A DNA stretch of 64,000 bases from Bradyrhizobium barranii subsp. barranii. GTDB lineage: Bacteria; Pseudomonadota; Alphaproteobacteria; Rhizobiales; Xanthobacteraceae. How positions within the stretch are numbered: the first letter of the stretch is position 1; the number at the start of each line of letters is the position of its first letter. Position numbers and translations under genes: made by a program. This document shows, one piece after another, positions 7,958 to 53,036 of this stretch. The notes beneath the pieces are model-generated. The model made no database searches. It saw only the letters and a list, made by a program, of their open reading frames with translations, and was not told the DNA's origin. The stretch covers positions 7,423,501 to 7,487,500 of the forward strand of contig NZ_CP086136.1 in assembly GCF_017565645.3 (NCBI RefSeq), given 5' to 3'.

Positions 7958-8686
7958 TCACTCGCCGTCCAGGCCGCTCGCGGCGAGGTCGCGCAACGCA
8001 TCGGTATCCAGCACGACGATGGCGCCGTGCTCGAGACGGACCCAGTTGCGGCCGGCCCAGGCGCGCAATTGCTTGTTGATGCTCTCGCGCGTCATCCCCA
8101 CCATCTCGCTGATCTCCTGCTGCGTGATGGCGAGCGTGCCGCTGCCGGAGTCGAACTTGCGCTCTTCGGTGAGACCGAGCAGCGCGCTCGCAAGCCGGCC
8201 CGGCAGATTTTGCAGGATCACCTGCTCGACCTGCTGGCTGGTCCAGCGCAGGCGCGCGCAGAGCAGCTCGATGAACTTCATCGCTAGCGCCGGCTGGCTC
8301 TTCACGAATGGCAGGAAGTCGCGGCGGTCGATGATGTAGAGTTCGCAATTGGTGTTGGCAGTCGCGTCGGCCGAGCGCGGCGCGCCATCGAGAACCGCGA
8401 TCTCGCCAAAGATTTCTCCCGGACCGATCAGATTGAGAATTGCGTTCCTTCCATCCGGCGACGAAGAGGAAATCTTCACTGTTCCCGTGATCACCGCGAA
8501 CAGGTTGTTGCCGGGATCGCCCTTGGCGGCGATCGTCGCACCGCGCTTCACCGTGGTGTGCTTGGCATAGCGGCAGAGCTGATCGAGCGCATCTGGCTCC
8601 AGATCCGCGAAGATCGGGTGCTTGCGCAGGACCGATAATTTGTTGCCCGCCGCTTGTCGGGGGTCGCCGGTCTTGTCCTGAGGCAC
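7958..8686 (-). CDS. Crp/Fnr-family transcriptional regulator without Fe-S cysteines
   Basis: The 242-residue protein has an N-terminal cyclic-nucleotide-binding-type barrel (about residues 20-140, with GEIFGEIAVLDGAPRSADATA resembling the cAMP phosphate-binding cassette). The C-terminal helix-turn-helix is around ITQQEISEMVGMTRESINKQL. It has no N-terminal cysteine cluster, so it is not an oxygen-sensing FNR. The recognition helix (TRESINKQ) is closer to CRP than to FNR/FixK. The effector and targets are unknown. It sits one gene away from the FNR-like regulator but has no TTGA-N6-TCAA box in its own upstream gap. Confidence 0.88.
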   Translation of the reverse strand: MPQDKTGDPRQAAGNKLSVLRKHPIFADLEPDALDQLCRYAKHTTVKRGATIAAKGDPGNNLFAVITGTVKISSSSPDGRNAILNLIGPGEIFGEIAVLDGAPRSADATANTNCELYIIDRRDFLPFVKSQPALAMKFIELLCARLRWTSQQVEQVILQNLPGRLASALLGLTEERKFDSGSGTLAITQQEISEMVGMTRESINKQLRAWAGRNWVRLEHGAIVVLDTDALRDLAASGLDGE

Positions 8687-8968: not shown

Positions 8969-9094
8969 TCAGTGCTTGGCGTCCGAATCGGGGCGACCTG
9001 CGCTGGTTTGCCGGTCTGCCCATGCCAAGGCCCCGGCGAATGTGACAAAAACGACCACGACAGCGATCGTCACCAGCAGTGCGTCAGTCGGCAT
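8969..9094 (-). CDS. Small single-span membrane protein (41 aa), FNR-box controlled
   Basis: A 41-codon reading frame starts MPTDALLVTIAVVVV and continues as one membrane helix followed by AWADRQTS and a polar tail. GGGAGGG lies six bases before the ATG, a strong ribosome site. A perfect FNR/FixK dyad sits about 60 bases upstream of the start (centre 9153.5), between this gene and the FNR-like regulator. It resembles small membrane peptides accompanying FnrN-type regulators in bradyrhizobia, in size similar to CcoQ/CydX-like accessory peptides. Its function is unknown. Confidence 0.7.
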   Translation of the reverse strand: MPTDALLVTIAVVVVFVTFAGALAWADRQTSAGRPDSDAKH

Positions 9095-9146: not shown

Positions 9147-9160
9147 TTGATTGGGATCAA
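9147..9160. promoter_or_regulatory. FNR/FixK box
   Basis: TTGATTGGGATCAA is a perfect TTGAT-N4-ATCAA dyad. Its centre lies about 60 bases before the start of the small membrane protein, leaving room for a class II promoter with a short leader. It lies just downstream of the fnr-like gene. Confidence 0.85.
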
Positions 9161-9177
9161 AATTGGCGAGCGCCGGA

Positions 9178-9891
9178 TCAGGCCGCAGCCAAGGCCTCGA
9201 CCTTCGCCGGATCGAGCAGGCTGATGCCGCCATGAACGATCTCGATCACCCCATGTCGCTCCAGCTTGGTGAAGGTGCGACTGACGGTTTCGATGGTCAG
9301 GCCGAGATAATCGGCAATGTCCTGACGACTCATCGGCAGCTGAACCGTGTCCGACGCCCCCTTCAGCGAGAATAGCCGCTCGCGCCAGGCGAGCAGAAAC
9401 GTCGCGACTTTCTCGTCCGCCGATCGGCGGCCGAGCAGGACCATGTGGTCGCGCGCCTGGCTCAACTCGCGAATCGCCAGCTCGTTGATCCGCCTGAGGA
9501 GGTGCGGCCGGCTCTCGACGAAGCGGCCGAAGGGCGCCTTCGCGAACTGGCACACTGTGACGCCACCGATCGCATCGGCCGAAAAATTGTGACGGCCGGA
9601 AATATTCATCCCCAGGAAATCGCCTGGTAACGCGAATCCCACGATCTGCCGCCGACCGTCGGGCAACAGCTTGTAGAGCCGCATGACGCCGTCGAGGAGA
9701 TTGTAGAACGAGGTCGTGCTGTCCTCCTCGGAGAAGACGGTCTCGCCCCCGTCAAAGAGGACGCGGCGCCCCAGATGCTCGAATTCCCTGAGCTCGGCCG
9801 GGTCCAGCGACGAGCACACCGCGAAGTCGCGGACCGCACAATCGCGACAGAAATGCCCGTTCGGCTCAATCGTCACCACGGAAGCCTTCAT
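9178..9891 (-). CDS. fnrN: Oxygen-sensing FNR-type regulator (FnrN/AadR-like)
   Basis: The 237-residue protein has cysteines at positions 15, 18 and 26 (C-x2-C-x7-C, the FnrN/AadR spacing) and a fourth at 114. Together these should ligate an oxygen-labile [4Fe-4S] cluster. The C-terminal helix-turn-helix includes IADYLGLTIETVSRTF, with the E-x2-S-R recognition residues of FNR that read TTGA half sites. A TTGA-N6-TCAA box lies about 90 bases upstream of the start, consistent with autoregulation or FixK control. Six further matching boxes lie within 11 kb, so this protein is the natural candidate regulator of the neighbouring genes. The gene symbol is by family resemblance. Confidence 0.9.
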   Translation of the reverse strand: MKASVVTIEPNGHFCRDCAVRDFAVCSSLDPAELREFEHLGRRVLFDGGETVFSEEDSTTSFYNLLDGVMRLYKLLPDGRRQIVGFALPGDFLGMNISGRHNFSADAIGGVTVCQFAKAPFGRFVESRPHLLRRINELAIRELSQARDHMVLLGRRSADEKVATFLLAWRERLFSLKGASDTVQLPMSRQDIADYLGLTIETVSRTFTKLERHGVIEIVHGGISLLDPAKVEALAAA

Positions 9892-9974
9892 CTACCGCTC
9901 CAAGCACCGGCTTGCCCCGCATCAGGCCGAGCCCACCGCGCGGGCTGCATTTTACTGCACTGCGCCAAAGCCGA

Positions 9975-9988
9975 TTGACCCAGATCAA
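9975..9988. promoter_or_regulatory. FNR/FixK box upstream of the fnr-like gene
   Basis: TTGACCCAGATCAA matches TTGA-N6-TCAA. It is centred about 90 bases upstream of the fnr-like start codon; class II spacing would give a leader of about 50 bases. Autoregulation is the likely role. Confidence 0.75.
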
Positions 9989-10019
9989 TTTTGGCGGGCA
10001 TGGCCGTCTTGTGCTGTTG

Positions 10020-11123
10020 CTAGACCGCCTGCACCGTCCAGCCGATCAGCTCCTTTGCAATGCGGGCGAAAGCTGTGTCGAACGCTGCGACCGCCGCGGC
10101 CGGCTCGACCTTGTCAAGCGTCTCGCTGGTCTCGACGAGGCGCGACGCCACCACTTTGCCGTTCTTGTCGACGATGCGTGCCGACAGTCCGATCTCGACC
10201 CGAGCCTCGCCTTCCGTGGCGATCCGGAAGCGCCTGATGTCGATCAGGAGCTGGTAGTCCGCCTGCCCGAGATCGCTCGTGCGCAAGGGCGCGTGGGCGA
10301 TGTCGTAATTCTCAAAGCTGTCGATCAGCCGCGCCTGCACCAGTTTTGGAATGCTGTCGGCCCAGAGGAATTCCGCAAAACCCGGATTATCCCCGCTGGG
10401 TGCAAACAACATCCGCTGGGTCTGGAGCATCGCGACCGCGGTCGGCTCGGGAATCGCCAGTGACGCCGAAAGCGTCTTGCCGGCCGGCCCAAGATTCTGC
10501 GGCGTGCGCAGGTCGTAGGTGATCTTCTGCGCCGGCGTCCCGCCGCCGGTCATCTTTTCGAGGCCTGCCAGAATACCGTCGATTTTGCCGGTGTTGCGCG
10601 CGAGCCCGTCGGAGAATGTCTTGAGGTTCGCGATAGTGTCCTTCAGCGGACCGGAATTGTCCTCCAGCACGGTGTCGACCCGTCGCAGCGCATCGCGCGC
10701 AGCCTGCGTCATGCTCTGGCCTGCACCGGCCTCGGCGATCAGGGTCACGGGCTCGCCGGCCTTGGCAACGATCATGCCGCCCTCCAGCGTCACCACCGGC
10801 ACGCCGGTCAGCCCCTGGAAATCGAGCCCGACCTTCGTGTCGGTACGCACGGGTGTCGTCGAGGCAACCGAGATCGTCGCATTGACGAAGCGCGGATTAT
10901 CCGGCGCGAGGCCGATCTGCGTCACCTCGCCGACCCGGATGCCGTTGAACAGCACACCGGCACCGACCAGCAGGCCCGGCACCGGCCCCTGGAATTGCAC
11001 ATGATAGTTTGCGCGCGGCCCGATGCCGCCTGTGTTGTTCAGCCAATAGACGAAGCCGAACACCGCGAGGATAGCGGCCAGCACGAAGCTGCCGATCAGC
11101 ACGTAGGGAGCGCGGGTTTCCAT
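10020..11123 (-). CDS. MlaD-family (MCE) protein fused to an auxiliary lipoprotein-like domain
   Basis: The 367-residue protein has one N-terminal membrane anchor (about residues 8-28) and an MCE domain (about 38-118, with GLLVGAGVLFNGIRVGEV). A linker follows, then a C-terminal region (about 200-360, including YQLLIDIRRFRI and RIVDKNGKVV) resembling the ABC-type transport auxiliary component (PqiC/YmbA-like). MCE proteins form periplasmic lipid-conducting rings in Mla-type systems. In enterobacteria the auxiliary component is a separate outer-membrane lipoprotein; here it appears fused. It is the last gene of the operon with the ATPase and permease. The symbol is left empty because paralogues are common. 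Confidence 0.85.
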   Translation of the reverse strand: METRAPYVLIGSFVLAAILAVFGFVYWLNNTGGIGPRANYHVQFQGPVPGLLVGAGVLFNGIRVGEVTQIGLAPDNPRFVNATISVASTTPVRTDTKVGLDFQGLTGVPVVTLEGGMIVAKAGEPVTLIAEAGAGQSMTQAARDALRRVDTVLEDNSGPLKDTIANLKTFSDGLARNTGKIDGILAGLEKMTGGGTPAQKITYDLRTPQNLGPAGKTLSASLAIPEPTAVAMLQTQRMLFAPSGDNPGFAEFLWADSIPKLVQARLIDSFENYDIAHAPLRTSDLGQADYQLLIDIRRFRIATEGEARVEIGLSARIVDKNGKVVASRLVETSETLDKVEPAAAVAAFDTAFARIAKELIGWTVQAV

Positions 11124-11126
11124 GTC

Positions 11127-11900
11127 TCATCTCATCTCGTGTTGCAGCATCTGAGAGCGCTTGCCGTGGAAATAGGCGCGCACCCAGGGATGCTCGGATT
11201 GCAGCAATTCGCGCATCGGGCCGATCGCCACGATCTTGCCGTCGGCGAGCGCGGCGACGCGGTCGCAGACCGTGGTGAGGCTCGCAAGATCATGGGTGAC
11301 CATGAACACGGTGAGGCCGAGGGTCTTCTGCAGCGTCCCGATCAGCGCGTCAAAATCGCCGGCGGCGATCGGGTCGAGACCGGAGGTCGGCTCGTCCAGG
11401 AACAGGATCGGCGGATCGAGTGCAAGTGCGCGGGCTAGCGCCACGCGTTTGGTCATGCCGCCCGAGAGCTCCGACGGATATTTGTCGGCGTCCTGCGCTC
11501 GCAACCCGACCATCTCGAGCTTGGCGATGGCGATCTCGTCCATCAGCTCCTGCGACAGCACGAGATTTTCGCGGAGCGGAAACTGCACGTTTTGACGTAC
11601 CGTCAGCGAGGAGAACAGCGCACCTTGCTGGAACAAAATGCCCCACGTCGTGGCCGCGCCTTCGGTGCGGCCACCGATCGGCCGTCCCATGACTTCGATG
11701 CTCCCGCCCTGGCGCGGGATCAGGCCGATGATGGTGCGCATCAAGACCGACTTGCCGCCGCCGGAGGCACCGACGAGCCCGAGGATCTCGCCTCGGCGGA
11801 CGTCGAGCGACAGATGGTCGAGCACGGTCTGGCGGCCGAAGCCGACCACGAGGTCGCGAACGCGGATCGCGAATACCTCTTGCGATTCGTCCATCGTCAC
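11127..11900 (-). CDS. Mla-type ABC transporter ATPase
   Basis: The 257-residue ATPase has Walker A GASGGGKS (about residues 42-49), signature LSGGMTKRVALARA, Walker B ILFLDEPTSGLDP and the H-loop VTHDL. The sequence is typical of MlaF/Ttg2A, which powers phospholipid movement between membranes. It overlaps the permease gene by four bases and precedes the MCE gene by three, so the three are co-translated. Confidence 0.92.
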   Translation of the reverse strand: MTMDESQEVFAIRVRDLVVGFGRQTVLDHLSLDVRRGEILGLVGASGGGKSVLMRTIIGLIPRQGGSIEVMGRPIGGRTEGAATTWGILFQQGALFSSLTVRQNVQFPLRENLVLSQELMDEIAIAKLEMVGLRAQDADKYPSELSGGMTKRVALARALALDPPILFLDEPTSGLDPIAAGDFDALIGTLQKTLGLTVFMVTHDLASLTTVCDRVAALADGKIVAIGPMRELLQSEHPWVRAYFHGKRSQMLQHEMR

Positions 11901-13033
11901 ATTCCGATCGAAGCGAAGAAGATCGCGAATAAGCCGTCGAGCACGATCACCAGGAAGATCGATTTCACCACCGACGTGGTCGTCTGCCGCCCGAGCGATT
12001 CCGCGCTGCCCTTCACACGCAATCCTTCGCTGCAGGCGACGATCCCGATCACCAGAGCCATGAAGGGCGCCTTCAGGATGCCGACCTCGAAATGGGTGAC
12101 GGAGATGGCCTCATGCAGCCGCGCGATGTAGATCGCCGGTGCCATCCCGCCGTAGAACTGCGCAACCAGTCCTCCGCCATAGAGCGCCGCAACCGCCCCA
12201 ATGAACGCGAGGATCGGCAGCGCGATGACGAGGGCTGCCACTCGCGGCAATATCAGGACATGGACGGGATCGAGGCCCATGGTCGAGAGCGCGTCGATCT
12301 CCTCGCGCATCTTCATCGAGCCGAGCTCGGCCGTGTACGCGCTCCCCGACCGGCCGGCGACCATGATGGCGACGATCAGCACACCCAGCTCGCGCAGCAC
12401 CAGGATGCCGACCATGTCGACAGTGTAGGACTCCGCACCGAACCTGCGGAAATGAAAGAACCCCTGCTGGGCGATGATGGCACCGATCAGGAAGGTAATG
12501 AGAACGACAATCGGAATGGCCTGCCAGCCGATCCGGTAGAGCTGATAGACAAGCGATGTCAGCCGCAGCGAGCGTGGCCGGCGCAGCACGCCGATCACGG
12601 CGATGAACAATGCACCCAGCATTTGAAGAAAGATCGTGACGTCTTCGCGCGCGCCAACCGTAGATTTGCCGAGATCGCCGAGCCTGAGCAGAATCGGGTT
12701 TGGCGCGGCCGCAACCGCCGGGGGGTGGCGGTTGACCTGACGCACCTCATCCATCAGGCCGCTGAAATGATCGGCAACGCCGACGAATTCGGCCGATCTG
12801 CCGGATGATGCGGCCCGTCGCGACAGCTTCTCCAACACCCAGGCGCCGAGCGTGTCGAGCGCGCTAACGCCGGACATGTCCAGCGTCACGGCACTGGATC
12901 GATCGACATCCGCTCCGACCGATCGGGACAGCGTTTCGAGCGCCGACACATTGGCTGCCGTCCACGGCCCTTCCGGGCGCAATTTCAGCACATCGCCGGA
13001 GGGCGTTGCCAGCAACAGCGGTTCGGAGTTCAC
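11897..13033 (-). CDS. Mla-type ABC permease with N-terminal STAS domain
   Basis: The 378-residue protein begins with a STAS-like domain (about residues 1-100, containing LDMSGVSALDTLGAWVLEKL) fused to the MlaE permease core of five to six helices. Core landmarks are GAIIAQQGFF and ELGSMKMREEIDALSTMGLDP. In enterobacteria the STAS protein MlaB is separate; fusion to MlaE is seen in many proteobacteria. It is the first gene of the operon. An FNR/FixK-type dyad lies 76 bases upstream of its start. Confidence 0.92.
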   Translation of the reverse strand: MNSEPLLLATPSGDVLKLRPEGPWTAANVSALETLSRSVGADVDRSSAVTLDMSGVSALDTLGAWVLEKLSRRAASSGRSAEFVGVADHFSGLMDEVRQVNRHPPAVAAAPNPILLRLGDLGKSTVGAREDVTIFLQMLGALFIAVIGVLRRPRSLRLTSLVYQLYRIGWQAIPIVVLITFLIGAIIAQQGFFHFRRFGAESYTVDMVGILVLRELGVLIVAIMVAGRSGSAYTAELGSMKMREEIDALSTMGLDPVHVLILPRVAALVIALPILAFIGAVAALYGGGLVAQFYGGMAPAIYIARLHEAISVTHFEVGILKAPFMALVIGIVACSEGLRVKGSAESLGRQTTTSVVKSIFLVIVLDGLFAIFFASIGM

Positions 13034-13102
13034 GCTTCCACCTCATCGGGACAATTGGTCCCCATTCAGCCGCCACTTCTAGGCCAGCCCGTGGCGGCCG
13101 GG

Positions 13103-13116
13103 TTGACCTGTCTCAA
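13103..13116. promoter_or_regulatory. FNR/FixK-type box facing the Mla-type operon
   Basis: TTGACCTGTCTCAA fits TTGA-N6-TCAA. It is centred 76 bases before the permease start on the minus strand. The inner bases deviate from the ideal TTGAT/ATCAA, so affinity may be lower than for the other sites. Confidence 0.65.
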
Positions 13117-13138
13117 CACCAGGGCCACGCGCCGTCCC

Positions 13139-13152
13139 TTGACGCAAATCAA
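13139..13152. promoter_or_regulatory. FNR/FixK-type box facing the DUF883 operon
   Basis: TTGACGCAAATCAA fits TTGA-N6-TCAA with a perfect right half (ATCAA). It is centred about 64 bases before the ATG at 13210. Together with the box at 13103 it gives each divergent operon its own site. Confidence 0.75.
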
Positions 13153-13209
13153 GCGCGGCCGCGCCGCCGGGCCTTAGGGTCGCTTCCATTCAAGGGAGTT
13201 CTCAAATCC

Positions 13210-13485
13210 ATGTTCAACAGCGACAGGATGAGCGAAGAACTGCGAGCGCTGAAGGTTGACGTCACGCGTCTGCTGAGCACCGCAGGCGAAGAGATGTTCG
13301 ACAGCTCGAAAGACCGGGCCGAGGCTCTGGCCGATCAGATCAAGGCCGCGCTTGCCGAGCTCGGAGAAACCGTCAGCGACGAGCAGGAGCAGCTTCAGCG
13401 CCTCATTGTGGAACGCCCGGTCACATCGCTCGCCTCCGCTTTCGCACTCGGCGTCGTCGTCGGCGTCATGCTGAGGAGACACTAA
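13210..13485 (+). CDS. DUF883 (ElaB/YqjD-like) membrane-anchored protein
   Basis: The protein has 91 residues when started at the ATG at 13210, with GGGAG eleven bases upstream. It has a long amphipathic, charged helix (about residues 8-65) and a C-terminal anchor ending GVVVGVMLRRH. This is the layout of ElaB/YqjD proteins, stress-induced inner-membrane proteins reported in Escherichia coli to bind ribosomes. The next gene starts immediately after its stop codon. Upstream in-frame codons before 13210 run through the promoter box and are unlikely to be translated. Confidence 0.8.
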   Translation: MFNSDRMSEELRALKVDVTRLLSTAGEEMFDSSKDRAEALADQIKAALAELGETVSDEQEQLQRLIVERPVTSLASAFALGVVVGVMLRRH

Positions 13486-13968
13486 GTGAATACCGAGAAT
13501 GTCGTCAAACATCTGCGCGTGCTGTGGCGCGCGGACAGGATCATCGCGGACATCAAGCTGCGCCATCTGTTGATCGGTCTCGGCCTGCGGGCCTTCGCGG
13601 CCCTGATCGCGACATTCGGGCTCCTGATGCTGGAGCTGTCGGCCTATTTCGCGCTGGTCCAGATCTGGAGCGCAATTGCGGCGGCTGCCATCCTCGGCAC
13701 CGTCAATTTCGCCATCGCGGCGGTTCTCTTCGTCGTTGCCGGCCGTCCTCCATCCGGCCGCGACATCGAGCTCGCCAATGAAATTCACGGCGCATCCATC
13801 GAAGCCTTGCAGCTCGAGGCGCGGGCGCTCCAGGCCCAGGTGTCAGGCGCGGTCCATCATCCGCTCAGCACGATTGTGCCGGTGCTGGTGCCGCTGATCG
13901 CGATCATCGTCAAGAGTCTGCGGAAAACGGCCACGGAATCCGCCGCATCGCGCGAAGCGCACTCGTGA
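13486..13968 (+). CDS. Phage-holin-family-like (YqjE-type) membrane protein
   Basis: The 160-residue protein starts at a GTG directly after the DUF883 stop; GAGGAG lies inside the previous gene. It has a basic N-terminus, two adjacent membrane helices (about residues 32-85), a cytoplasmic linker and another hydrophobic stretch near 128-143. In enterobacteria yqjD and yqjE sit together, and this pair appears to correspond to them. The precise function is unknown. Confidence 0.65.
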   Translation: MNTENVVKHLRVLWRADRIIADIKLRHLLIGLGLRAFAALIATFGLLMLELSAYFALVQIWSAIAAAAILGTVNFAIAAVLFVVAGRPPSGRDIELANEIHGASIEALQLEARALQAQVSGAVHHPLSTIVPVLVPLIAIIVKSLRKTATESAASREAHS

Positions 13969-13977
13969 TCGGAACGC

Positions 13978-16671
13978 TCAGAGCTTGAGCCTGACGTCAC
14001 AGAGGTCGGGCTCGGTCGAATCCGGCTTCACGTCGAAGCCGAGCTGGCGGCACATCTCAAGCATTGTGGTGTTCTCCCTGAGAACATCACCCGAGATGGT
14101 CTTCAGCCCCTCCGATCTCGCATAGTCGATGATCAACTGCATCAACGCCCATCCGAGCCCCCTGCCCTTGAGGTCGGAGCGCAGCAGGATCGCATATTCG
14201 CCGCTCTCATAGACCGAGTCCGAATGGAGCCGGACCACGCCGACCATCTCGCCGGTCGCTTCGTCGAATGCGATGAAGGCCATTGCGCGGGCATAATCGA
14301 GCTGGGTCAGGCGCGCGATGAACTCGTGGGTGAACTCCTTCATCGGCGCGAAGAAGCGCAGGCGGAGGTCGTGCGCCGTGACGTGACGCAGGAATTCGTG
14401 GATGGTCGGCTCGTCCTCGGGACGCAGGGGCCGTACGAAGATGCGCCAGTCATCCTTGAGCGCCAGGCGGCGCTCCCACTGCGACGGATAGGCCCGGACG
14501 GCGAAATTGGCCGGGCCGGAGCCGGCGAATTTGCGCTGCGGCGGCTCCACCGCGACGCGGGCGTCGACCGCGGTCACGCCGGTCTCGTCCGCAAGCAGTG
14601 GGTTGATGTCGAATTCACGGATCTCGGGAAGGTCGGCGGCCATCTGGGCGAGCTTGACCAACACCATCGCGACGGCGTCCGGCTCGACCGCGGGTACGTC
14701 GCGATAGGCCTGCAGCAGCCGTGATACGCGCGTGCGGCCGATCAGGTCGCGGGCGAGTTGCAGATCGAGCGGCGGAAGCGCCAGTGCCTTGTCGTTGATG
14801 ATCTCGACCGCCGTCCCGCCCCGGCCGAAGACGACAACGGTGCCAAAGGTGGGATCGTCGGCAAGACCCAGGATCAGCTCGCGCGCCTTCGCCTTGACGA
14901 CCATCGCCTGCACGATGACGCCCTCGATGCGGGCTTCGGGACGGAGCTTCCTCGCCCGCGCGAGAATGTCGGTGGCAGCCGCGCGCACGGCCTCCGGCGT
15001 GGTCAGATTGAGGACGACGCCGCCGACGTCCGACTTGTGGACGATGTCGCGCGACATGATCTTCAGCACGACTGTGACGCCCTGCGCGAACATCTCGCTG
15101 GCGTAGGCGACAGCCTGCTCGACATCGGTTGCAGCACGGGTCGGTACCATCGCGATGTCATAGGCTCCGAGCAGGTGCTTGATCTCGATGGGCTCGAGCC
15201 ATTTGCGGCCGTCCGCGATCGCAGCGGCGACGATCTGCCTGGCAGCCCGGGCGTCAGGCACGAACGTGTCGGGCATCGCGGGAGGAACCTGGCTCAGCTC
15301 CTCTACGACCTCGCGATGCCTCACGAGATGCATGAAGCCGCGCACCGCATCATCTTCGGTCGGATAATTCGGAATGCCCGCGCCGGAGAGCGCCTGAACG
15401 ATGTTCTGATCGGCTCCAACCCAAGCCGCCAGCACGGGCTTCGCCCATCGACGCTGCTTCTCGCGATATTTGCCGACGAGCTCCGTCACGGTCGCGGCGA
15501 TGTCGGCCGCCGGGGCGATCGCGGTCTGCACGTTGAGGACGAGGACGGCATCATTATCAGGGTCTGCGAGCAGCACCTCCAGCGCCGCCGCGTACCGCGA
15601 TGCATCGGCATCACCGACGATGTCGACGGGATTTGCACCGGACCAGGTCGGCGGCAGCACTGCATCGAGGCTCTTGCGCGTCTCAGCCGAGATGGATGCC
15701 GGGATTCCACCAAGGTCCACCAACCGATCCACGGCCAGGACACCGATGCCGCCGCCATTGGTGAGGATGGCGAGACGCTTTCCCGCCGGCGGTTCGACGC
15801 GACCGAGTGTCTCGGCGCAATCGAACAGCTCGCGCAGATCGGAGACCCGCAGGACGCCCGCACGGCGGAACGCGGCATCATAGACGGCGTCGGCGCCGGC
15901 GAGCGCGCCCGTATGGGTTGCCGCCGCTTTGGCACCCTGCGCCATGCGGCCGGACTTCACCACGACGACCGGCTTCACGCGCGCCGCGGCCCGTGCCGCC
16001 GACATGAACTTGCGCGCGTCCTTGATGGCTTCGATATAAAGCAGGATCGCGCGGGTCTTGGGGTCCATCGCGAAATGGTCGAGCAGGTCGGCAATATCGA
16101 CATCGATCTGATCGCCGATCGTGACAATTCCGGAGAACCCGACGCCGCGCTGCGCAGCCCAATCCACCATTCCGGCCGCGATCGCGCCGGATTGCGAGAT
16201 CAGCGCGAGGTTGCCCGCCCCCGGCATGTGCGCGGCAAAGCTGGCATTGAGGCTGACGCCGGGCATCATGATGCCGAGGCAGTTCGGCCCAATCAGCCGC
16301 ATGCCGTATTTGCGTGCCGCCGCGATCGCGGCCTCGTGCAGGGACCCAGGTCCGTGACCGAGGCCCGCCGAGACGATCAGCGCGCCGGCCGAGCCACGAC
16401 GTCCGGCCTGGTCGATAATACCGGGGACCTCGCGCGCCGGCGCGGTGATGACCACGAGCTCGGGCACGAAGTCCAGCCTGTCCAGACTGCCCACCGCGGC
16501 GATGCCGCCGATCTCGGCATGGCGCGGATTGACGAGGCCGAACCGACCCTTGAATTCGGCCTTGTGAATATTCTCAAGAACGGCGCGGCCGACGGAGACC
16601 GGGCGGGCGCTCGCGCCGACAAGCGCAACCGAACGCGGCGACAGCAGATTCTTCAAGCGATAGGTTGACAT
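13978..16671 (-). CDS. Acyl-CoA synthetase (NDP-forming)/GNAT fusion, protein acetyltransferase Pat-like
   Basis: The 897-residue protein has the order CoA-binding domain (about 8-130), succinyl-CoA-synthetase-like flavodoxin domain, ATP-grasp (about 480-700) and C-terminal GNAT (about 730-890, with the acetyl-CoA loop RSDLKGRGLGWALM). This is the architecture of Pat/PatZ protein lysine acetyltransferases, which inactivate AMP-forming acyl-CoA synthetases by acetylating the catalytic lysine. The stretch ATHTGALAGADAVYDAAF keeps a histidine at the NDP-forming active-site motif, so I cannot exclude residual synthetase activity. It lies 69 bases downstream of the universal stress gene and is probably co-transcribed from the FNR-boxed promoter. 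Confidence 0.85.
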   Translation of the reverse strand: MSTYRLKNLLSPRSVALVGASARPVSVGRAVLENIHKAEFKGRFGLVNPRHAEIGGIAAVGSLDRLDFVPELVVITAPAREVPGIIDQAGRRGSAGALIVSAGLGHGPGSLHEAAIAAARKYGMRLIGPNCLGIMMPGVSLNASFAAHMPGAGNLALISQSGAIAAGMVDWAAQRGVGFSGIVTIGDQIDVDIADLLDHFAMDPKTRAILLYIEAIKDARKFMSAARAAARVKPVVVVKSGRMAQGAKAAATHTGALAGADAVYDAAFRRAGVLRVSDLRELFDCAETLGRVEPPAGKRLAILTNGGGIGVLAVDRLVDLGGIPASISAETRKSLDAVLPPTWSGANPVDIVGDADASRYAAALEVLLADPDNDAVLVLNVQTAIAPAADIAATVTELVGKYREKQRRWAKPVLAAWVGADQNIVQALSGAGIPNYPTEDDAVRGFMHLVRHREVVEELSQVPPAMPDTFVPDARAARQIVAAAIADGRKWLEPIEIKHLLGAYDIAMVPTRAATDVEQAVAYASEMFAQGVTVVLKIMSRDIVHKSDVGGVVLNLTTPEAVRAAATDILARARKLRPEARIEGVIVQAMVVKAKARELILGLADDPTFGTVVVFGRGGTAVEIINDKALALPPLDLQLARDLIGRTRVSRLLQAYRDVPAVEPDAVAMVLVKLAQMAADLPEIREFDINPLLADETGVTAVDARVAVEPPQRKFAGSGPANFAVRAYPSQWERRLALKDDWRIFVRPLRPEDEPTIHEFLRHVTAHDLRLRFFAPMKEFTHEFIARLTQLDYARAMAFIAFDEATGEMVGVVRLHSDSVYESGEYAILLRSDLKGRGLGWALMQLIIDYARSEGLKTISGDVLRENTTMLEMCRQLGFDVKPDSTEPDLCDVRLKL

Positions 16672-16740
16672 GAAAGCAAATGCGCCCGGTCGGTGGCGGT
16701 TCCGATGGTTGGCGATCAGGCCGATAAACTGGCGATGCGC

Positions 16741-17580
16741 CTAGTGCGAGATAATAACCCAGCACGGCGGCTGGCCAATGACGGTCTTTGTCACACCACC
16801 CCAGACGATCTCGTTCAGGCGTGAATGATGGTAGGCGCCCATCACGATCGCATCCATGGCATGGGAATTCGCCCAGCTCCCGAGCACCTTGCCGATCGAG
16901 CTGCCGCCGCCCTTCGTCGTTTCGAACGAGGCGTAGACCCCGTGTTCCCTCAGATGGTCGACGAGCGCGGTTCCGGATTGCACGATGGCATCGGTCTTGT
17001 CGTCCGCCACCGTGACCACCCGGGCGGATGAAGCAGCCTGAAGAATGGGCAGCGCGTCGCCGACGGCCCGCGCGGCACGGGCGGAGTGATCCCAGGCGAT
17101 CATGACGTTCTCGAACTCCGGTCGCAGCTCGTCCACATGCTGTTCCGGGCAGAGCAGCAGCGGCCGGCCGGATTCGAACAGGAGCGTTTCGATGATGCGT
17201 TCCGTTTGACTGTCATGCGGCCTCACGGGGACCAACGTCAGATCGCTGAAGCGCGCATGCTCGGCCAGGATCGACGCCATCTGGTCCGCCGGCACCTTAC
17301 CCGATCGGCTTTGGGCACGAATGTTGGCGCGGGAGGCTGCATTGGTGAAGGCGTTGAGGAGTTGCTGCACGTCGCTTAGCTCACGCGAACCGCTCGCCTC
17401 CGGGGGATCCAAATCGCCAGGGATGATGACCTTCGGCCGCACGAAAACATCTTCCTCGAGCGCGAGCGCGGTGATCCTGGCGCCGAGGTCGGCGGCGACA
17501 GCCACGCATGTCGCGATCGCGGCGAGGGCCGGTCCGCGCGGTTGGCCGACAAGCGGCAGAAAGACATCCTTGATGGGCAT
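16741..17580 (-). CDS. Universal stress protein, tandem UspA domains
   Basis: The 279-residue protein contains two UspA-like domains (about 1-150 and 155-279). The second ends with the ATP-binding-like pattern MGAYHHSRLNEIVWGGVTKTVI. FNR/FixK family regulators control Usp genes in several alphaproteobacteria. Two TTGA-N6-TCAA boxes lie in the 171-base gap upstream. It probably forms an operon with the downstream Pat-like gene. The molecular role is not determinable from the sequence. Confidence 0.88.
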   Translation of the reverse strand: MPIKDVFLPLVGQPRGPALAAIATCVAVAADLGARITALALEEDVFVRPKVIIPGDLDPPEASGSRELSDVQQLLNAFTNAASRANIRAQSRSGKVPADQMASILAEHARFSDLTLVPVRPHDSQTERIIETLLFESGRPLLLCPEQHVDELRPEFENVMIAWDHSARAARAVGDALPILQAASSARVVTVADDKTDAIVQSGTALVDHLREHGVYASFETTKGGGSSIGKVLGSWANSHAMDAIVMGAYHHSRLNEIVWGGVTKTVIGQPPCWVIISH

Positions 17581-17627
17581 CGGGATTCTCCTTACCGGTT
17601 AGGATAAGCCACCTTTCGCCGGGAAGC

Positions 17628-17641
17628 TTGATCCTCCTCAA
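17628..17641. promoter_or_regulatory. FNR/FixK-type box facing usp
   Basis: TTGATCCTCCTCAA matches TTGA-N6-TCAA (left half TTGAT perfect, right half CTCAA). It is centred 54 bases before the usp start on the minus strand. Confidence 0.6.
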
Positions 17642-17676
17642 GGCGGGAACACCGCGCAGCCAGCCGACGACAGGCT

Positions 17677-17690
17677 TTGACCGATGTCAA
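17677..17690. promoter_or_regulatory. FNR/FixK-type box facing the kinase/CHAD operon
   Basis: TTGACCGATGTCAA matches TTGA-N6-TCAA. It is centred 68 bases before the start of the APH-like/P-loop gene on the plus strand. It forms a divergent pair with the box at 17628. Confidence 0.75.
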
Positions 17691-17751
17691 GGACTGGCCC
17701 CGATCCGCCTCTAAGGATTAGCCTGCTGCCTCACCGCTGACGCATCTGGAA

Positions 17752-19287
17752 ATGCCTGCTGAGATGACAGACGATTCTGCAATCCAGGAACGGGTCTTCG
17801 AAGCTCTAAACGCGCGTCCTGGCGTAAAGCGGATCGACACCCACGCAGCGTCGGTGTTTCTCGACGGAACGCGCGCCCTGAAGATCAAGCGGGCTGTCAA
17901 GTTTCCATTCCTCGACTATTCGACGCTCGAAAAGCGCGAGGCGGCCTGCGAAGAGGAGATCAGGATCAACCGGCCGCTCGCGCCGCAAATCTATCACCGC
18001 GTCGTGGCGATCACGGAGGAACCGGATGGATCGATCGAGATCGACGGTGGCGGCCGGCCGATCGAGTATGCGGTCGACATGTCCCGCTTCGACGAAAACC
18101 GGACGCTGGACCATGTGGCAAAAGCCGGCCCGCTGGATGCAGAGCTCGCTCCGGCCATCGCGAATGCGATCGCAGCATCGCATGCGAGGGCGCCCGTCGC
18201 GGATGGCGCCGCATGGATTGCCTCCATTCCTGCGCTGATCGATGGCAACAGCACCGGGCTGCGCAGCGGTGGCCATTTCGAAGCAGCAGAGGTTGATCAG
18301 CTTGACAAAGCCTCACACCGGGCATTCCTGCGCGTCCGCGCTACACTGGAAGAACGCGCGCGCCACGGTTTCGTGCGCCGCTGTCACGGCGACTTGCATC
18401 TCGCCAATATCGTGCTGATCGACCGGCAGCCTGTCCTGTTCGACGCGATCGAATTCGACGCGCAGATGGCGACTGTGGACGTGCTCTACGATCTTGCGTT
18501 CACGCTGATGGACCTGCTGCGCCATGACCAGTCGGCCACGGCCAATGCCGTCCTGAACCAGTATCTGATGACGGCGCCCGACGAAACGCTCGACGCCCTG
18601 GCGGCGCTGCCACTGTTCATGTCCATGCGCGCCGCGATCCGTGCGCAGGTGGCGCTGGCGCGACTGAGGCGGCTTGATGCCGACGGCCCCGGCACTCTCG
18701 ACGAGGCGCGCCGCTATTTCGAGCTCGCCCGGGCTTTGATTCATCCCCCCGCCCCTCGCCTGATCGCGGTTGGCGGACTGTCGGGCACCGGCAAATCCGT
18801 GCTCGCCCGCGCGCTGGCGCCCGTCGTGGCGCCACATCCGGGCGCCGTCGTGCTGCGCAGCGACGTCATTCGCAAGCAGCTGTTTCAGGTGGGACACACC
18901 GAACGGCTACCGCCGTCCACGTACCGGCCTGACGTGACGGCGCGCGTCTACGGGGTGCTGATGCAGCGCGCCCGGCAGGTTCTGGCGCAAGGCCACTCGG
19001 CAATCGTCGACGCCGTCTTTGCGCGCGAGACCGAGCGAGACGAGATGGCCGCCCTGGCACGCGAGTGCAGCGTACCGCTCAATGGACTATTCCTCGTCGC
19101 CGACCTCGCCACCCGCCAGGCGCGAATCGGCGGCCGCCGGGGCGACGCGTCCGACGCCACGCAAGAGGTTGCCGCGCAGCAAGAGCACTATAATATCGGC
19201 CATGTCGGTTGGGCGACCATCGATGCATCCGGGACACAAGCGCAGACGCTCCAGAATTGCCGGGACGTAATCGCTGAGGGCAAATAA
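17752..19287 (+). CDS. APH-like kinase fused to a P-loop ATPase/kinase domain
   Basis: The 511-residue protein has an N-terminal aminoglycoside-phosphotransferase-like half with HGDLHLANIVL (about residue 206) followed by LFDAIEFD. The C-terminal P-loop domain has GLSGTGKS at about residue 342, like the zeta-toxin/AAA_33 small-molecule kinases. This fusion is widespread in proteobacteria without an assigned substrate. It starts 68 bases after an FNR/FixK box and is followed closely by the CHAD gene, so both are probably induced together. A second ATG at 17764 is an alternative start. Confidence 0.82.
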   Translation: MPAEMTDDSAIQERVFEALNARPGVKRIDTHAASVFLDGTRALKIKRAVKFPFLDYSTLEKREAACEEEIRINRPLAPQIYHRVVAITEEPDGSIEIDGGGRPIEYAVDMSRFDENRTLDHVAKAGPLDAELAPAIANAIAASHARAPVADGAAWIASIPALIDGNSTGLRSGGHFEAAEVDQLDKASHRAFLRVRATLEERARHGFVRRCHGDLHLANIVLIDRQPVLFDAIEFDAQMATVDVLYDLAFTLMDLLRHDQSATANAVLNQYLMTAPDETLDALAALPLFMSMRAAIRAQVALARLRRLDADGPGTLDEARRYFELARALIHPPAPRLIAVGGLSGTGKSVLARALAPVVAPHPGAVVLRSDVIRKQLFQVGHTERLPPSTYRPDVTARVYGVLMQRARQVLAQGHSAIVDAVFARETERDEMAALARECSVPLNGLFLVADLATRQARIGGRRGDASDATQEVAAQQEHYNIGHVGWATIDASGTQAQTLQNCRDVIAEGK

Positions 19288-19312
19288 GGCAATCTGATTG
19301 GCGCGGGCTAGG

Positions 19313-20287
19313 ATGGCGCGACCCACCACGAGTTCGATGGCGACCGCTCGCGCCAAGCCTGCGGCGCGGCGCAATGTTCTGCCCGGCCGCCTCAGCCCCG
19401 GCATGGCCTGCGACACCGCGTTCCGGATTATCGCCCGCCGCCACCTCGATGCCGTCCTCGCCCAGCACGATGGCACCTGCCACGGCGATCCCGAGGCGCT
19501 GCATCAGATCCGGATCGCACTGACGCATCTGCGCACCGCCATCCGCTTCTTCTCGCCCATGGTCGACGATGCCCTGCGGCCGAATGTCTGGGCCGAACTG
19601 AAATGGCTGAACAGCCAGCTCGGCATGGTGCGCGACCTAGACGTGGCGATCGAGCGGGTTATCGCCGAAAGCGGAGGCGAGCTTGACGTGATCGCCGAGC
19701 TTCAGCATTGGGACGAGAAGCGCGCCGAGAGCCACCGCCTGCTGGCGCGCGCGCTGCAATCGGCGCGGTATCGCCGTCTTGTCGAGCAGACCTCCGCCTG
19801 GATCGAGAGCGGTCCTTGGTCGACCCGGCGCAGCAAGGAGGCCATCCGATTGCGCCGCTGCCCGCTTGCCGACCACGCGACGGCGCAGCTCACGGAATGG
19901 GAAACGACGCTGCTCAGGAAGGCGCGGAAACTGCGCAAGCTCGACGTCGGAAAACGGCACAAGCTGCGGCTCCTCAACAAGCGGCTGACCTATTCGATCG
20001 AATCGCTAGAGGATTTGTTTGCAGACGAATCGCTGACCAAACAGAAGTCGATCCTCAAGCAATTACGCAAGGCGCAGAAGTCCCTCGGGCAATTGAACGA
20101 CGATGCGCGAGGCCAAACCCTGGCAGCGTCGCTGAACGAGGCCGTCCCCGAGGCGGGCATTCGCTTCCACAACCGGAAGCGCCAAAAGAAGCTGTTGCGG
20201 ACCGCCTCGAACGCTTACCGGAAACTGGACATGGCCAAGCCGTTCCGCTCCTCCGACCTCGCCCCGAATGCGGAGCCCGAGGATTAG
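19313..20287 (+). CDS. CHAD-domain protein
   Basis: The protein has 324 residues from the ATG at 19313. It is rich in Arg and His, with the alpha-helical CHAD pattern LHQIRIALTHLRTAIRFF near residue 60 and RKLRKLDVGKRHKLRLLNKRL near 200. CHAD domains bind polyphosphate. It follows the kinase fusion by 25 bases, so it is likely in the same operon. A TTG at 19298 and an ATG at 19337 are other possible starts, as no strong ribosome site decides between them. Confidence 0.8.
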   Translation: MARPTTSSMATARAKPAARRNVLPGRLSPGMACDTAFRIIARRHLDAVLAQHDGTCHGDPEALHQIRIALTHLRTAIRFFSPMVDDALRPNVWAELKWLNSQLGMVRDLDVAIERVIAESGGELDVIAELQHWDEKRAESHRLLARALQSARYRRLVEQTSAWIESGPWSTRRSKEAIRLRRCPLADHATAQLTEWETTLLRKARKLRKLDVGKRHKLRLLNKRLTYSIESLEDLFADESLTKQKSILKQLRKAQKSLGQLNDDARGQTLAASLNEAVPEAGIRFHNRKRQKKLLRTASNAYRKLDMAKPFRSSDLAPNAEPED

Positions 20288-20299
20288 GTGCGGACCAGC

Positions 20300-20313
20300 T
20301 TGACTTGGGTCAA
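20300..20313. promoter_or_regulatory. FNR/FixK box upstream of the CBS-BON gene
   Basis: TTGACTTGGGTCAA is a TTGA-N6-TCAA dyad with symmetric GTCAA/TTGAC halves. It is centred about 73 bases before the ATG at 20380. Confidence 0.75.
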
Positions 20314-20379
20314 ATCAGCTTCCTGCCGGTGACCTAAGCTCCACACATCGATATTCGTGTGAACTTGCGGAGCTTCCCC

Positions 20380-21108
20380 ATGCGCGCCCACCAGATCATG
20401 ACCCGCTCGGTCATCTCGGTTGCCCCTCACACCAGCATCGTCGAGGCGGCAAACATCATGTTGAAGCGGCACGTCAGCGGCCTCACCGTGGTCGACGATG
20501 CCGGCAAGCTGGTCGGCGTGGTCTCCGAGGGCGATTTCGTTCGCCGCAGCGAAATCGGCACCGAGCGCAAGCGAGGCCGCTGGCTGCGGTTCATCCTCGG
20601 CCCCGGCAACTCCGCCAGCGATTTCGTCCACGAGCACGGCCGCAAGGTCTCGGAGGTGATGACCGCCTCGGTCGTGACCATCACCGAGGATACGGCGCTC
20701 GCGGAGATCGTTGATCTCATGGAACGGAACAACGTAAAGCGGCTGCCGGTGGTGCGCGGCGACAAGGTCGTCGGCATCGTCTCGCGCGCGAATTTGTTGC
20801 AGGCGGTGGCGGGGCTCGCCCGCGAGGTACCGGATCCGACGGCCGACGACGATCACATTCGCGGCCGTATCACCGACACCATGGAGAAAAACGACTGGTG
20901 CCCGTTCGGACTGAACGTCATCGTCCGGGACGGCATCGTTCATCTCAGCGGCGTCATCACCGAGGAATGCGCGCGTCAGGCCGCCGTCGTCGCGGCGGAG
21001 AACGTCGAGGGCGTCAAGAAGGTGCACGACCATCTGTGCTGGGTCGACACTGTATCGGGCGTCTATCTGAATTCGCCCGAGGACGACGATCTCGCCAGGG
21101 CCAGTTAG
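20380..21108 (+). CDS. CBS-domain pair with C-terminal BON domain
   Basis: The protein has 242 residues from the ATG at 20380, which has GGAG eight bases upstream; the upstream GTG at 20359 lacks one. Two CBS motifs (about residues 1-60 and 90-150, each beginning with IMT or VMTAS) flank a charged linker. A BON domain follows (about 165-225, WCPFGLNVIVRDGIVHLSG). CBS pairs sense adenine nucleotides, and BON domains bind membranes or other proteins. An FNR/FixK box upstream puts it in the low-oxygen set. Confidence 0.85.
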   Translation: MRAHQIMTRSVISVAPHTSIVEAANIMLKRHVSGLTVVDDAGKLVGVVSEGDFVRRSEIGTERKRGRWLRFILGPGNSASDFVHEHGRKVSEVMTASVVTITEDTALAEIVDLMERNNVKRLPVVRGDKVVGIVSRANLLQAVAGLAREVPDPTADDDHIRGRITDTMEKNDWCPFGLNVIVRDGIVHLSGVITEECARQAAVVAAENVEGVKKVHDHLCWVDTVSGVYLNSPEDDDLARAS

Positions 21109-47817: not shown

Positions 47818-49347
47818 ATGCCTGTATTGCTTCCGTCGTCCCGGCCGCGCGGCCGTACCGAGCGGGCCGGCGCCAGCCGCGCGAGTCACCATGCCGTGCT
47901 GATCGCCGGCGGCGGCCCGACCGGTTTGATGCTGGGCGCCGAGCTCGCGCTCGCGGATGTCGACGTCGCCGTGGTCGAGCGGCGCCCGGATCAGGAGCTC
48001 GTCGGTACGCGGGCCGGCGGATTGCACGCGCGGACCATCGAGATCCTCGATCAGCGCGGCGTCGCGGAGCGCTTCCTGCGCGAGGGGCAAGTCACCCAGC
48101 TCGCGGGCTTCGCCTGGACCAGGCTCGACATCGGCGATCTCCCCACCCGGCACGCTTATGGCCTCGCGCTGCGGCAGAGCCACATCGAGCGCATCCTGGC
48201 CGACTGGGTCGAGGAGCTCGCGGTGCCGATCTATCGAAACTCCGAGGTGATCGGCTTCGTTAAGGATGCGACCGGCATCGACGTTGCGCTCGCCGGCGGC
48301 AAGACATTGCGCGCAAGCTACCTCGTCGGCTGCGACGGCGGTCGCAGCCTGGTACGCAAGAAGGCCGGCATCGATTTCGTCGGCTCCGATCCGACGCTCA
48401 GCAATCTCATGGCCGAAGTCGAGATGCGCGACGAGCCGGTATGTGGTCTCCGCCACGACGCCATCGGCTTTCATGGCCTCAGCAAGGCGGAGAGCGGTCG
48501 CGTGCTGGTCGTCGTGACGGAAGCGACGCTCGACCGCACCGGCGAACCCGGCCTGCGCGATCTCAGCGATGCGCTCGTCGCCGTGTACGGCACCGACTTC
48601 GGGCTCCAAAATCCCGCCTGGATCTCCCGCTTCACCGATGCGGCGCGGCAGGCCGTGTCCTATCGCCGGGAGCGCGTGCTGCTCGCCGGCGATGCCGCGC
48701 ATATCCATCACTCCGTCGGCGGGCAAGGCCTCAACACCGGCGTGCAGGACGCGGTCAATCTCGGTTGGAAGCTGGCGCAGGTGGTCAGGGGCATTTCGCC
48801 CGACGGCCTGCTCGACACCTACCACGCCGAACGTCATCCCGTCGCTGCGCGCGTCTTGCGCAACACCATGGCGCAAATCGCCATGCTCCGCCGCGGCGAG
48901 GCCGGCCTCAAGGCCGCGCGCGATGTGGTGTCCGACCTGCTCGCCATGGAGGAGCCGCGCAAACGTTTTGGCGCGATGATGAGCGGACTCGATATCCGCT
49001 ATGATCTCGGCGAAGGACACGAGCTGCTCGGGCGCCGGATGCCCGATCTCGACTTGATCGTCGAGGGCCATCCGCAGAGATTGTTCACGCTGCTGCACGG
49101 AGCGCAGGCCCTGCTGATCAATTTCGGCAAGTCCGGCGGGTTCGACATCGCACCCTGGGCAGATCGCATCAGAGTCATCAACGCCAGCCACGACGGCGCG
49201 TGGGAGCTCCTCGCCATCGGGCAGGTCGCCACGCCCGAAGCCGTGCTGGTTCGGCCAGACGGGCACGTGGCGTGGGTCGGAGATGAAAGCCAACGAGGGC
49301 TCGAGGACGCGCTGACCACCTGGTTTGGACCGGCTGCTGCGGCGTAG
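47818..49347 (+). CDS. FAD-dependent aromatic/antibiotic hydroxylase (PheA/TfdB-RdmE type)
   Basis: The 509-residue class A flavoprotein monooxygenase has IAGGGPTGLMLGAEL (about residues 28-42), GCDGGRSLVRKKAGI (the DG motif) and GDAAHIHHSVGGQGLNTGVQDAVNLGWKLA. The C-terminal thioredoxin-like domain ends near HVAWVGDE, as in phenol hydroxylase-like and polyketide or rifampicin hydroxylases. The ATG has GAGGGGG six bases upstream. It stands alone, followed by a hairpin, so its pathway is unclear. Confidence 0.87.
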   Translation: MPVLLPSSRPRGRTERAGASRASHHAVLIAGGGPTGLMLGAELALADVDVAVVERRPDQELVGTRAGGLHARTIEILDQRGVAERFLREGQVTQLAGFAWTRLDIGDLPTRHAYGLALRQSHIERILADWVEELAVPIYRNSEVIGFVKDATGIDVALAGGKTLRASYLVGCDGGRSLVRKKAGIDFVGSDPTLSNLMAEVEMRDEPVCGLRHDAIGFHGLSKAESGRVLVVVTEATLDRTGEPGLRDLSDALVAVYGTDFGLQNPAWISRFTDAARQAVSYRRERVLLAGDAAHIHHSVGGQGLNTGVQDAVNLGWKLAQVVRGISPDGLLDTYHAERHPVAARVLRNTMAQIAMLRRGEAGLKAARDVVSDLLAMEEPRKRFGAMMSGLDIRYDLGEGHELLGRRMPDLDLIVEGHPQRLFTLLHGAQALLINFGKSGGFDIAPWADRIRVINASHDGAWELLAIGQVATPEAVLVRPDGHVAWVGDESQRGLEDALTTWFGPAAAA

Positions 49348-49377
49348 CGCGCGAACGTCAGAGGCGCCATACAAACA

Positions 49378-49401
49378 AAGCCCGCGGGATTCCGCGGGCT
49401 T
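49378..49401. terminator. Hairpin downstream of the flavin hydroxylase gene
   Basis: AAGCCCGCGG (49378-49387) pairs perfectly with CCGCGGGCTT (49392-49401) around a four-base loop, 30 bases after the stop. The trailing T-run is weak on the plus strand (TTGATTGG). Confidence 0.65.
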
Positions 49402-49461
49402 GATTGGCATCAGGTTTTCGAAACACGGCTCAATATCCGAACGTTACGCCGCTCGCTGCTC

Positions 49462-49502
49462 TCCGAAGGCAAAGGTCACACGTTCGAATCGTGTCGGGGG
49501 TC
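49462..49502 (+). pseudogene. 3' end of a tRNA gene (T-arm and acceptor strand), possible attachment site
   Basis: ACACG-TTCGAAT-CGTGT (49478-49494) is a perfect five-pair T-stem with the canonical seven-base T-loop. It is followed by seven bases CGGGGGT as a 3' acceptor strand. CCGAAGG just upstream could be the end of the anticodon stem and variable region. No D-arm, 5' acceptor strand or CCA is visible. Duplicated tRNA 3' ends are left where integrases act, and the sequence to the right is accessory. Which tRNA it derives from is not certain. Confidence 0.5.
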
Positions 49503-49735
49503 TAGTGCCCCGTCCACTCCCTCGTGCATCTGTCTTTTGCCTTTTTCCCCTAGAGTTAGACCCCAATAGCGGGATTGGCCCTAGCTGTTCGTCTAGATCG
49601 CTGTTCGGAGGGTAGGACGGCTACCTTTATTAGAAACCAAAATTGAGGTTTACACCCTGAAATCCTCTCAGGTAATAGACTGCAATCCAGTTGAAATATT
49701 TGGAAACGTTGCAGCTTCTGGTGGCCTCATTGGAG

Positions 49736-51688: not shown

Positions 51689-52064
51689 TCTATTTCGCCT
51701 TCGCGCTCGACGAGGTCCGTCCTCTCGCATACTTCGTCGTGCGCGTGGTGCACGTTGTCGATCACGTATGAAGTAACAGGAGTAAGATTCGGGTTCATGC
51801 ACGAGCTCTCCTGTGTCCGACAAGTACACGCTGGGATGTGCGCCAACTTAAACTTGCGAAAAATGACGGATTTTTTTGTGGGGGCATCAGATAGGTTAAC
51901 GCTTGCAAGTTTCCCCCATGCCGCGCGTGCGTCGGCAAATTGTGGTCACAGCACTGTCACAACGGTCACATCAATTCGGCTTGCCTCGACTTGACCTTTG
52001 GGGGGTACGCCCCCTAACATATTGTAGTGATCGCCAGTGTTTTCAGGGACTTTTGAGACTTGCA
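51689..52064. other. Gene-free stretch downstream of the acyltransferase
   Basis: About 375 bases of lower-GC sequence with only short chance frames. It includes a T-rich run (near 51867) and a GGGGGTACGCCCCC palindrome around 52000-52013 that could terminate transcription. Nothing else is recognised. Confidence 0.45.
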
Positions 52065-52274
52065 CTAGAGAGACGCCAAGCTCACCGAACCGATCGCCTT
52101 GCCCTCCAATGCAGCCGTTTCACCTGGCGAGCCGACGTCTAGAGCCGGGCTCTGTGGTCTGTATGCAAGCGCGTCGGCCATCCAGCGCGGCCAACCGGTC
52201 AATTCCGCAATGCCTTGAGCTGGGGGATCTGGCTCAATCCGCCGTTGGCGCGGCTTCTGTCGGTCAGTGCTCAT
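52065..52274 (-). CDS. Small proline/arginine-rich hypothetical protein
   Basis: The 69-residue product starts at an ATG (52274) that overlaps the upstream gene stop as ATGA, with AGGAG seven bases before it. This argues strongly for translation. The sequence MSTDRQKPRQRRIEPDPP then AELTGWPRWMADALAY has no domain I can name. It is probably part of a small phage- or island-type cassette with the preceding gene. Confidence 0.55.
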   Translation of the reverse strand: MSTDRQKPRQRRIEPDPPAQGIAELTGWPRWMADALAYRPQSPALDVGSPGETAALEGKAIGSVSLASL

Positions 52275-52708: not shown

Positions 52709-52752
52709 CTGAAAAAACCCTTTGCAATCAGGTCCTGTCCTGGATCGGGAAT

Positions 52753-52844: not shown

Positions 52845-52906
52845 AGACGCCAAAGCGGCTCCGGGTGCAGGTCGCGCCGGCGCCGTCATTCCAACCGCAA
52901 ATCGGC

Positions 52907-52971: not shown

Positions 52972-53036
52972 AACTCGGACCTCGACAGCTACGGCCGCGC
53001 GACCAGTGTTGCCAGACGATTTCTCATGGCTCTCAA

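Follow-up and report, generated by a model that had tools for sequence, protein, structure and literature searches.

The window analysed here is a stretch of 64,000 nucleotides (nt) from Bradyrhizobium barranii subsp. barranii (64 kb of an 11.4 Mb genome of 11,399,526 bp; contig NZ_CP086136.1, positions 7,423,501-7,487,500, handled as G000:C1), in which a compact group of thirteen genes is interspersed with seven palindromic boxes of the form TTGA-N6-TCAA. These genes encode a CRP-like regulator, a membrane microprotein of 41 amino acids (aa), an FNR-type regulator, the three parts of an Mla-type lipid transporter (mlaE-F-D), a 91-aa protein and a holin-like protein, a universal stress protein and a Pat-type acetyltransferase (usp-pat), a kinase with a CHAD-domain protein, and a CBS-BON protein (Table 1). 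All seven exact matches to the box are intergenic with respect to the called genes and stand where the initial annotation had placed them, namely in promoter gaps, while an eighth match was not found in the 64-kb window.

Table 1. Genes and TTGA-N6-TCAA boxes of the locus (positions are those of the window).
Feature	Position	Strand	Remark
CRP-like regulator	7958-8686	-	
41-aa membrane microprotein	8969-9094	-	one hydrophobic stretch, no named family; own box 9147
Box of 41-aa peptide gene	9147-9160	-	-10-like AATAAT 9125-9120
FNR-type regulator, FixK1 (bll6061) orthologue by gene order	9178-9891	-	
Box of fixK1	9975-9988	-	-10-like TAAAAT 9954-9949
MlaD	10020-11123	-	MCE domain fused to PqiC-like ABC_trans_aux domain
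MlaF-type ATPase	11127-11900	-	ABC_tran match
MlaE-type permease	11897-13033	-	N-terminal STAS domain
Box assigned to mlaE-F-D	13103-13116	-	-10-like TAGAAG 13081-13076
Box assigned to 91-aa/holin-like pair	13139-13152	+	-10-like TTAGGG 13174-13179
91-aa protein, bsr6066-like by position	13210-13485	+	
Holin-like membrane protein, blr6067-like by position	13486-13968	+	Phage_holin_3_6 below cut-off
Pat-type acyl-CoA-ligase/GNAT acetyltransferase	13978-16671	-	69 nt behind usp
Universal stress protein	16741-17580	-	Usp 26.0 bits, cut-off 24
Box of usp-pat	17628-17641	-	-10-like TTATCC 17607-17602
Box of kinase-CHAD pair	17677-17690	+	-10-like TAAGGA 17712-17717
APH-like/AAA_33 kinase	17752-19287	+	
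CHAD-domain protein	19313-20287	+	
Box of CBS-BON	20300-20313	+	-10-like TAAGCT 20335-20340
CBS-BON protein, blr6074-like by position	20359-21108	+	

Dinucleotide shuffling of the window gave a mean of 0.50 boxes and a maximum of 3, with none of 100 shuffles reaching at least 7, in agreement with the earlier estimate of about one chance match per 65 kb and fewer in GC-rich DNA. Genome-wide, the pattern occurs at 209 places and the same pattern read backwards at 47, and when 209 sites were placed uniformly, seven within 11,153 bp did not arise in any of 20,000 simulations. The 47 reversed matches indicate that chance palindromes do exist in this genome; however, the shuffles, the promoter position of the boxes and their conservation in relatives make a chance cluster vanishingly improbable, and we take this explanation as refuted. 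A similar box density elsewhere in the genome, which the initial annotation had set as evidence against a regulon, was found: among the matches listed, seven boxes fall within 6.7 kb at 1,119,280-1,126,022 of the same contig, and the surrounding 70 kb (1.115-1.185 Mb, 1,115,000-1,184,999; L017-L020) hold 22 exact boxes, in a comparison that drew on 61 box places up to about 3.0 Mb. Judged by eye from translated starts, the genes of that region resemble Usp, CBS, CBS-BON, P-type ATPase, GroEL and FixK2-type genes. The second cluster therefore leads us to reject the uniqueness of the 11-kb box density, and speaks against that uniqueness rather than against a regulon.

The spacing of promoter elements suggests which gene each box serves. 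At all seven boxes a -10-like hexamer begins at nucleotide 21 or 22 past the box in the direction of the served gene, and in the opposite direction no such hexamer was seen by eye at the same spacing, so that each divergent gap holds a box for either direction, as claimed. With this spacing, the box centre and the start would be separated by about 40.5 bp, as reported for nosR and its FixK2 box (PMC5582078), and the boxes can thus be read from their hexamers as putative class II sites, centred about 40.5 bp before the start with the -10 element downstream. Among 379 boxed promoters pooled from 80 related loci, T stands at nucleotide 22 in 59% and A at nucleotide 23 in 78%; genome-wide, TA lies 20-22 nt past the box 54 times (13 times with the pattern reversed), and this list includes six of the seven from the window. 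By the same spacing, box 13103 would belong to mlaE and box 13139, which is 71 nt before the 91-aa gene, to that gene. This assignment is in tension with the literature, since the box printed for bsr6066 of B. diazoefficiens, TTGACCTGTCTCAA at -105 (PMC9104804), has exactly the 14 letters of box 13103, which lies 107 nt before the 91-aa gene. The published box, together with the single exact box, nearer the 91-aa gene, in the corresponding gap of B. diazoefficiens SZCCT0423 (L207), could mean that a box in a divergent gap acts on both genes or that one box is a repressor site; however, correctly spaced -10-like hexamers occur only on the near gene's side, and 65 of 80 loci keep two boxes in the MlaE/91-aa gap (23-51 bp apart, a spacing that suggested nothing further), so that we consider such double or repressing action unlikely and prefer boxes that each activate their own gene.

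Conservation was followed across the genus, where a search listed 96 matches of at least 66% besides the window's own (hand count), from which 80 loci in 79 genomes were fetched and 16 were left out (2 as second copies and 14 because, going by the listing, their contigs were short or ended nearby). Counting exact boxes within 250 bp upstream of each gene that passed the identity and coverage cut-offs with 260 bp upstream present, which gave denominators of 50-80, a box precedes the fixK1-type regulator in 64/64, the 41-aa peptide in 50/50 and Usp in 50/50 loci, and likewise MlaE in 76/80, the 91-aa protein in 62/63 and CBS-BON in 57/59. None was found before the genes for the CRP-like regulator (0/51), MlaD (0/80), MlaF (0/80), the holin-like protein (0/63) and the CHAD protein (0/54), and Pat has one in 7/69. 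The kinase count, only 20/63, is low because a further gene often lies between box and kinase: in many relatives about 1.15-1.18 kb separate the start of Usp from that of the kinase, with an extra gene in between (ADH-like by its start in L036), unlike the window, where this gap spans 17642-17751. Most relatives also differ from the window in carrying a PhaC-sized gene between CHAD and CBS-BON (616 and 645 aa in L031 and L036; 20288-20358 in the window), and L207 differs in a CxxCH cytochrome between MlaD and fixK1. Over the 80 loci, the thirteen genes contain no box in 811 kb and the sequence outside them contains 508 in 393 kb (reversed pattern, 1 inside and 5 outside). The boxes are thus conserved at orthologous promoters, to a lower degree at the kinase.

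A comparable region of Rhodopseudomonas palustris JSC-3b (L196) has an FNR-type regulator gene, which from its position we take to be aadR, along with MlaD, MlaF, a boxed MlaE, Pat, CBS and kinase genes; it also has a CxxCH cytochrome, and a 137-aa protein replaces the 91-aa/holin-like pair. The published core FixK regulon of R. palustris contains, as FixK-dependent genes, the cytochrome c gene RPA4235, the ABC transporter genes RPA4236 and RPA4238 with an ATPase printed as RSP4237, and RPA4239 (PMC2908626), and by order and annotation the L196 genes would correspond to RPA4235-4239. Because the L196 order of FNR-type regulator, CxxCH cytochrome, MlaD, MlaF and MlaE fits these annotations, the published ABC transporter is very probably the mlaE-F-D operon. 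On several substrates, a fixK mutant shows a reduced level of aadR itself (PMC3050613).

The fixK1 region of B. diazoefficiens (bll6060-blr6074), going by its published annotations, agrees with the window in gene order and gene type, with CRP/FNR, fixK1, MCE, ABC, MlaE, a hypothetical/holin pair, GNAT, Usp, kinase and CBS genes. At 0.5% oxygen, bll6060 (CRP/FNR), bll6063 (MCE family, 10.5-fold transcript), bll6064, bll6065 (MlaE), bll6068 (GNAT), bll6069 (Usp), bll6073 (phaC2) and blr6074 (CBS) are induced, and of these bll6069, bll6073 and blr6074, but not the other five, are marked as FixK2 targets in the accessible part of that study (PMC6515984). In a fixK2 mutant the fold changes are -92.6 and -20.9 for bsr6066-blr6067, -27.9 for bll6073 and -90.9 for blr6074 (PMC9104804), and blr6070, blr6071 and blr6074 are reported as FixK2-dependent (PMC2908626).

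The FNR-type regulator of the cluster has four cysteines (Cys15, 18, 26, 114) and an ETVSR recognition helix, so that [4Fe-4S] binding is predicted; the FnrN-type sensor of the initial annotation is borne out in its FNR-type character, while its gene order points to FixK1, bll6061 being named fixK1 in a table of PMC4070659. Its scores of 176 bits for FnrL and 153 bits for FixK lie below the NCBIfam equivalog cut-offs of 300 bits each, and the FixK1 assignment therefore rests on gene order. Two FixK2-type genes with the PMCRRDIGDYLGLTLETVSR motif were seen elsewhere on the contig, at 3,303,294 (L105) and 1,179,843 (L107), each with an exact box upstream. Since the genome encodes, besides these and fixK1, further regulators with an ETVSR helix, the sites are not attributable to the FixK1-type regulator alone. 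The cluster's own FixK1 could still be thought to work the boxes as an autonomous oxygen sensor, leaving FixK2 a secondary role, as its gene lies in the cluster, has the cysteines and the helix, and carries its own box in every locus counted; however, in B. diazoefficiens FixK2 is the named activator, with fixK1 named among its targets, the fixK2 mutant shows 21- to 93-fold lower expression of bsr6066, blr6067, bll6073 and blr6074, and FixK2-type genes are present in this genome as well, which makes a FixK1-led cluster quite improbable.

Based on these findings, we propose with high confidence that these 11 kb correspond to the fixK1 locus, a cluster within the low-oxygen FixLJ-FixK2-FixK1 regulon in which each box activates its own gene, and the seven boxes are, as predicted from sequence, FixK/FNR-type promoters. 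At low oxygen, FixLJ would raise FixK2, and FixK2, perhaps with FixK1 or other FNR-type proteins of the same site specificity, would bind each box as a dimer; from their distance to the putative starts, the bound boxes could recruit RNA polymerase to the -10 element on their own gene's side, and fixK1, the 41-aa peptide gene, the MCE/PqiC-like transporter operon mlaE-F-D, the 91-aa/holin-like pair, usp-pat, the kinase-CHAD pair and CBS-BON would be switched on. The sites, their spacing, their conservation and the candidate regulators were observed here, and the orthologues are induced by low oxygen in print, several of them in dependence on FixK2 or FixK; we infer box occupancy and precise start sites for this strain, as well as the function of the proteins. 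Several points weigh against this proposal: the published expression concerns orthologues, and binding in this strain is predicted; bll6063, bll6064, bll6065 and bll6068, although induced, carry no FixK2-target mark in the accessible part of PMC6515984; TA also lies 10-12 nt past the box, a control position, 26 times genome-wide (14 times for the reversed pattern) and is thus common after the box; box 9147 is absent from the list of boxes with TA at 20-22 nt; and, although all 117 genus genomes have an MlaE match, 23 of them have just a copy of about 57% identity and lack the closer one, so that not every member of the genus has the locus.

The dense FNR/FixK regulon and the list of controlled genes put forward by the initial annotation agree with box position, -10 spacing, conservation and orthologue expression; its observation is correct and its interpretation mostly correct, for a locus that is ordinary and largely published. 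CHAD domains bind polyphosphate and Pat enzymes acetylate proteins, and the proposed joining of lipid transport, polyphosphate-type binding and protein acetylation to oxygen limitation holds at the promoter level, partly in print, and its physiological side would be hypothetical. Much is known of this regulon from rhizobia, and expression tables published in 2010 (PMC2908626) and 2019 (PMC6515984) already include orthologues of the locus; the lipid transporter and the 41-aa microprotein are little-noticed parts of this known cluster.

The 367-aa MlaD of the transporter unites an MCE domain with a PqiC-like domain (Pfam), each half of the protein aligns with a different chain of PDB entry 13hr, and a single alignment covers this fusion in 80/80 genus loci and 71/80 loci of a named-genome set that overlaps the genus set. 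In the 30 best family loci (the window itself, 5 of the same genus and 24 from eight other genera) a box lies within 300 bp upstream of MlaE in all 30, and several of the 24 have just one box, at 95-114 or 286-289 nt upstream of MlaE, which could belong to a divergent gene. The named-genome set has such a box in 62/80 loci and none in 18/80, mostly more distant copies; the 57%-identical MlaE copy has none within 300 bp in 20 loci taken from the paralogue matches listed (0/20). The genome's second MlaE operon, which encodes an unfused MCE protein of 293 aa (L251:3326-4207, minus strand), likewise has no box within 300 bp. Mpc (Mla-Pqi chimera), found in many Hyphomicrobiales, shares with mlaE-F-D an MlaE-type permease with an N-terminal STAS domain, an MlaF-type ATPase, an MCE protein and a PqiC-like module, whereas its extended helical MCE C-terminus and its separate protein MpcA, apparently PqiC-like, differ from the window, where the MCE and PqiC-like parts form one polypeptide and the operon stands behind a FixK box (PMC12436622). 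Hence we describe mlaE-F-D as resembling Mpc, and as probably related to it, and claim no membership. RPA4236 was stabilised by zinc in a ligand screen (PMC3223731), and a literature search of accessible texts, which did not cover Mesa et al. 2008, found no discussion of FixK/FNR control of Mla/MCE transport.

The microprotein keeps the 41-residue length given in the initial annotation. At 63 loci with fixK1 the available sequence was long enough for comparison; 58 of them show a box on the 3' side of the gene, and an open reading frame of the same kind (34-47 aa) accompanies it in 56 of the 58. When 29 ungapped orthologues were each compared with one reference, without a tree, codon positions 1, 2 and 3 showed 217, 185 and 512 changes, and 400 synonymous codon changes stood against 326 non-synonymous ones, a pattern that suggests selection at the protein level. 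No Pfam or NCBIfam family was found for it beyond weak matches, and a FixQ-like identity was rejected, as one of 19 members scanned matches FixQ at E 0.1 and the window member matches nothing up to E 10. Nothing on this microprotein was found in the literature searched, including the accessible part of PMC5082802.

We tentatively suggest, as a possibility held at somewhat less than even confidence, that Bradyrhizobium and related genera possess a low-oxygen lipid transporter, a FixK-switched STAS-MlaE/MlaF pair with a one-chain MCE-PqiC bridge beside an unboxed second MCE system, co-switched with the 41-aa microprotein and the 91-aa/holin-like pair, by which envelope lipid traffic might be rebuilt in the microoxic (bacteroid) programme. 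What conservation adds is that the lipid transporter and the unnamed microprotein are constant members of the regulon where the locus occurs, a firm and testable case that could open the remodelling of the envelope under low oxygen, for instance in nodules, to study in existing laboratory strains.

Two further labels of the initial annotation were compared with Pfam. DUF883 for the 91-aa protein found no support, there being no match at 1e-3 and four irrelevant ones at E 0.085-2.6, and the holin-like label of its neighbour is weakly favoured by Phage_holin_3_6, at 25.3 bits under a cut-off of 28.4. Elsewhere in the window, the G+C content falls to 0.58-0.59 at 48001-56000, and the open reading frame 55169-55960 looks by eye like an IS110-type transposase.

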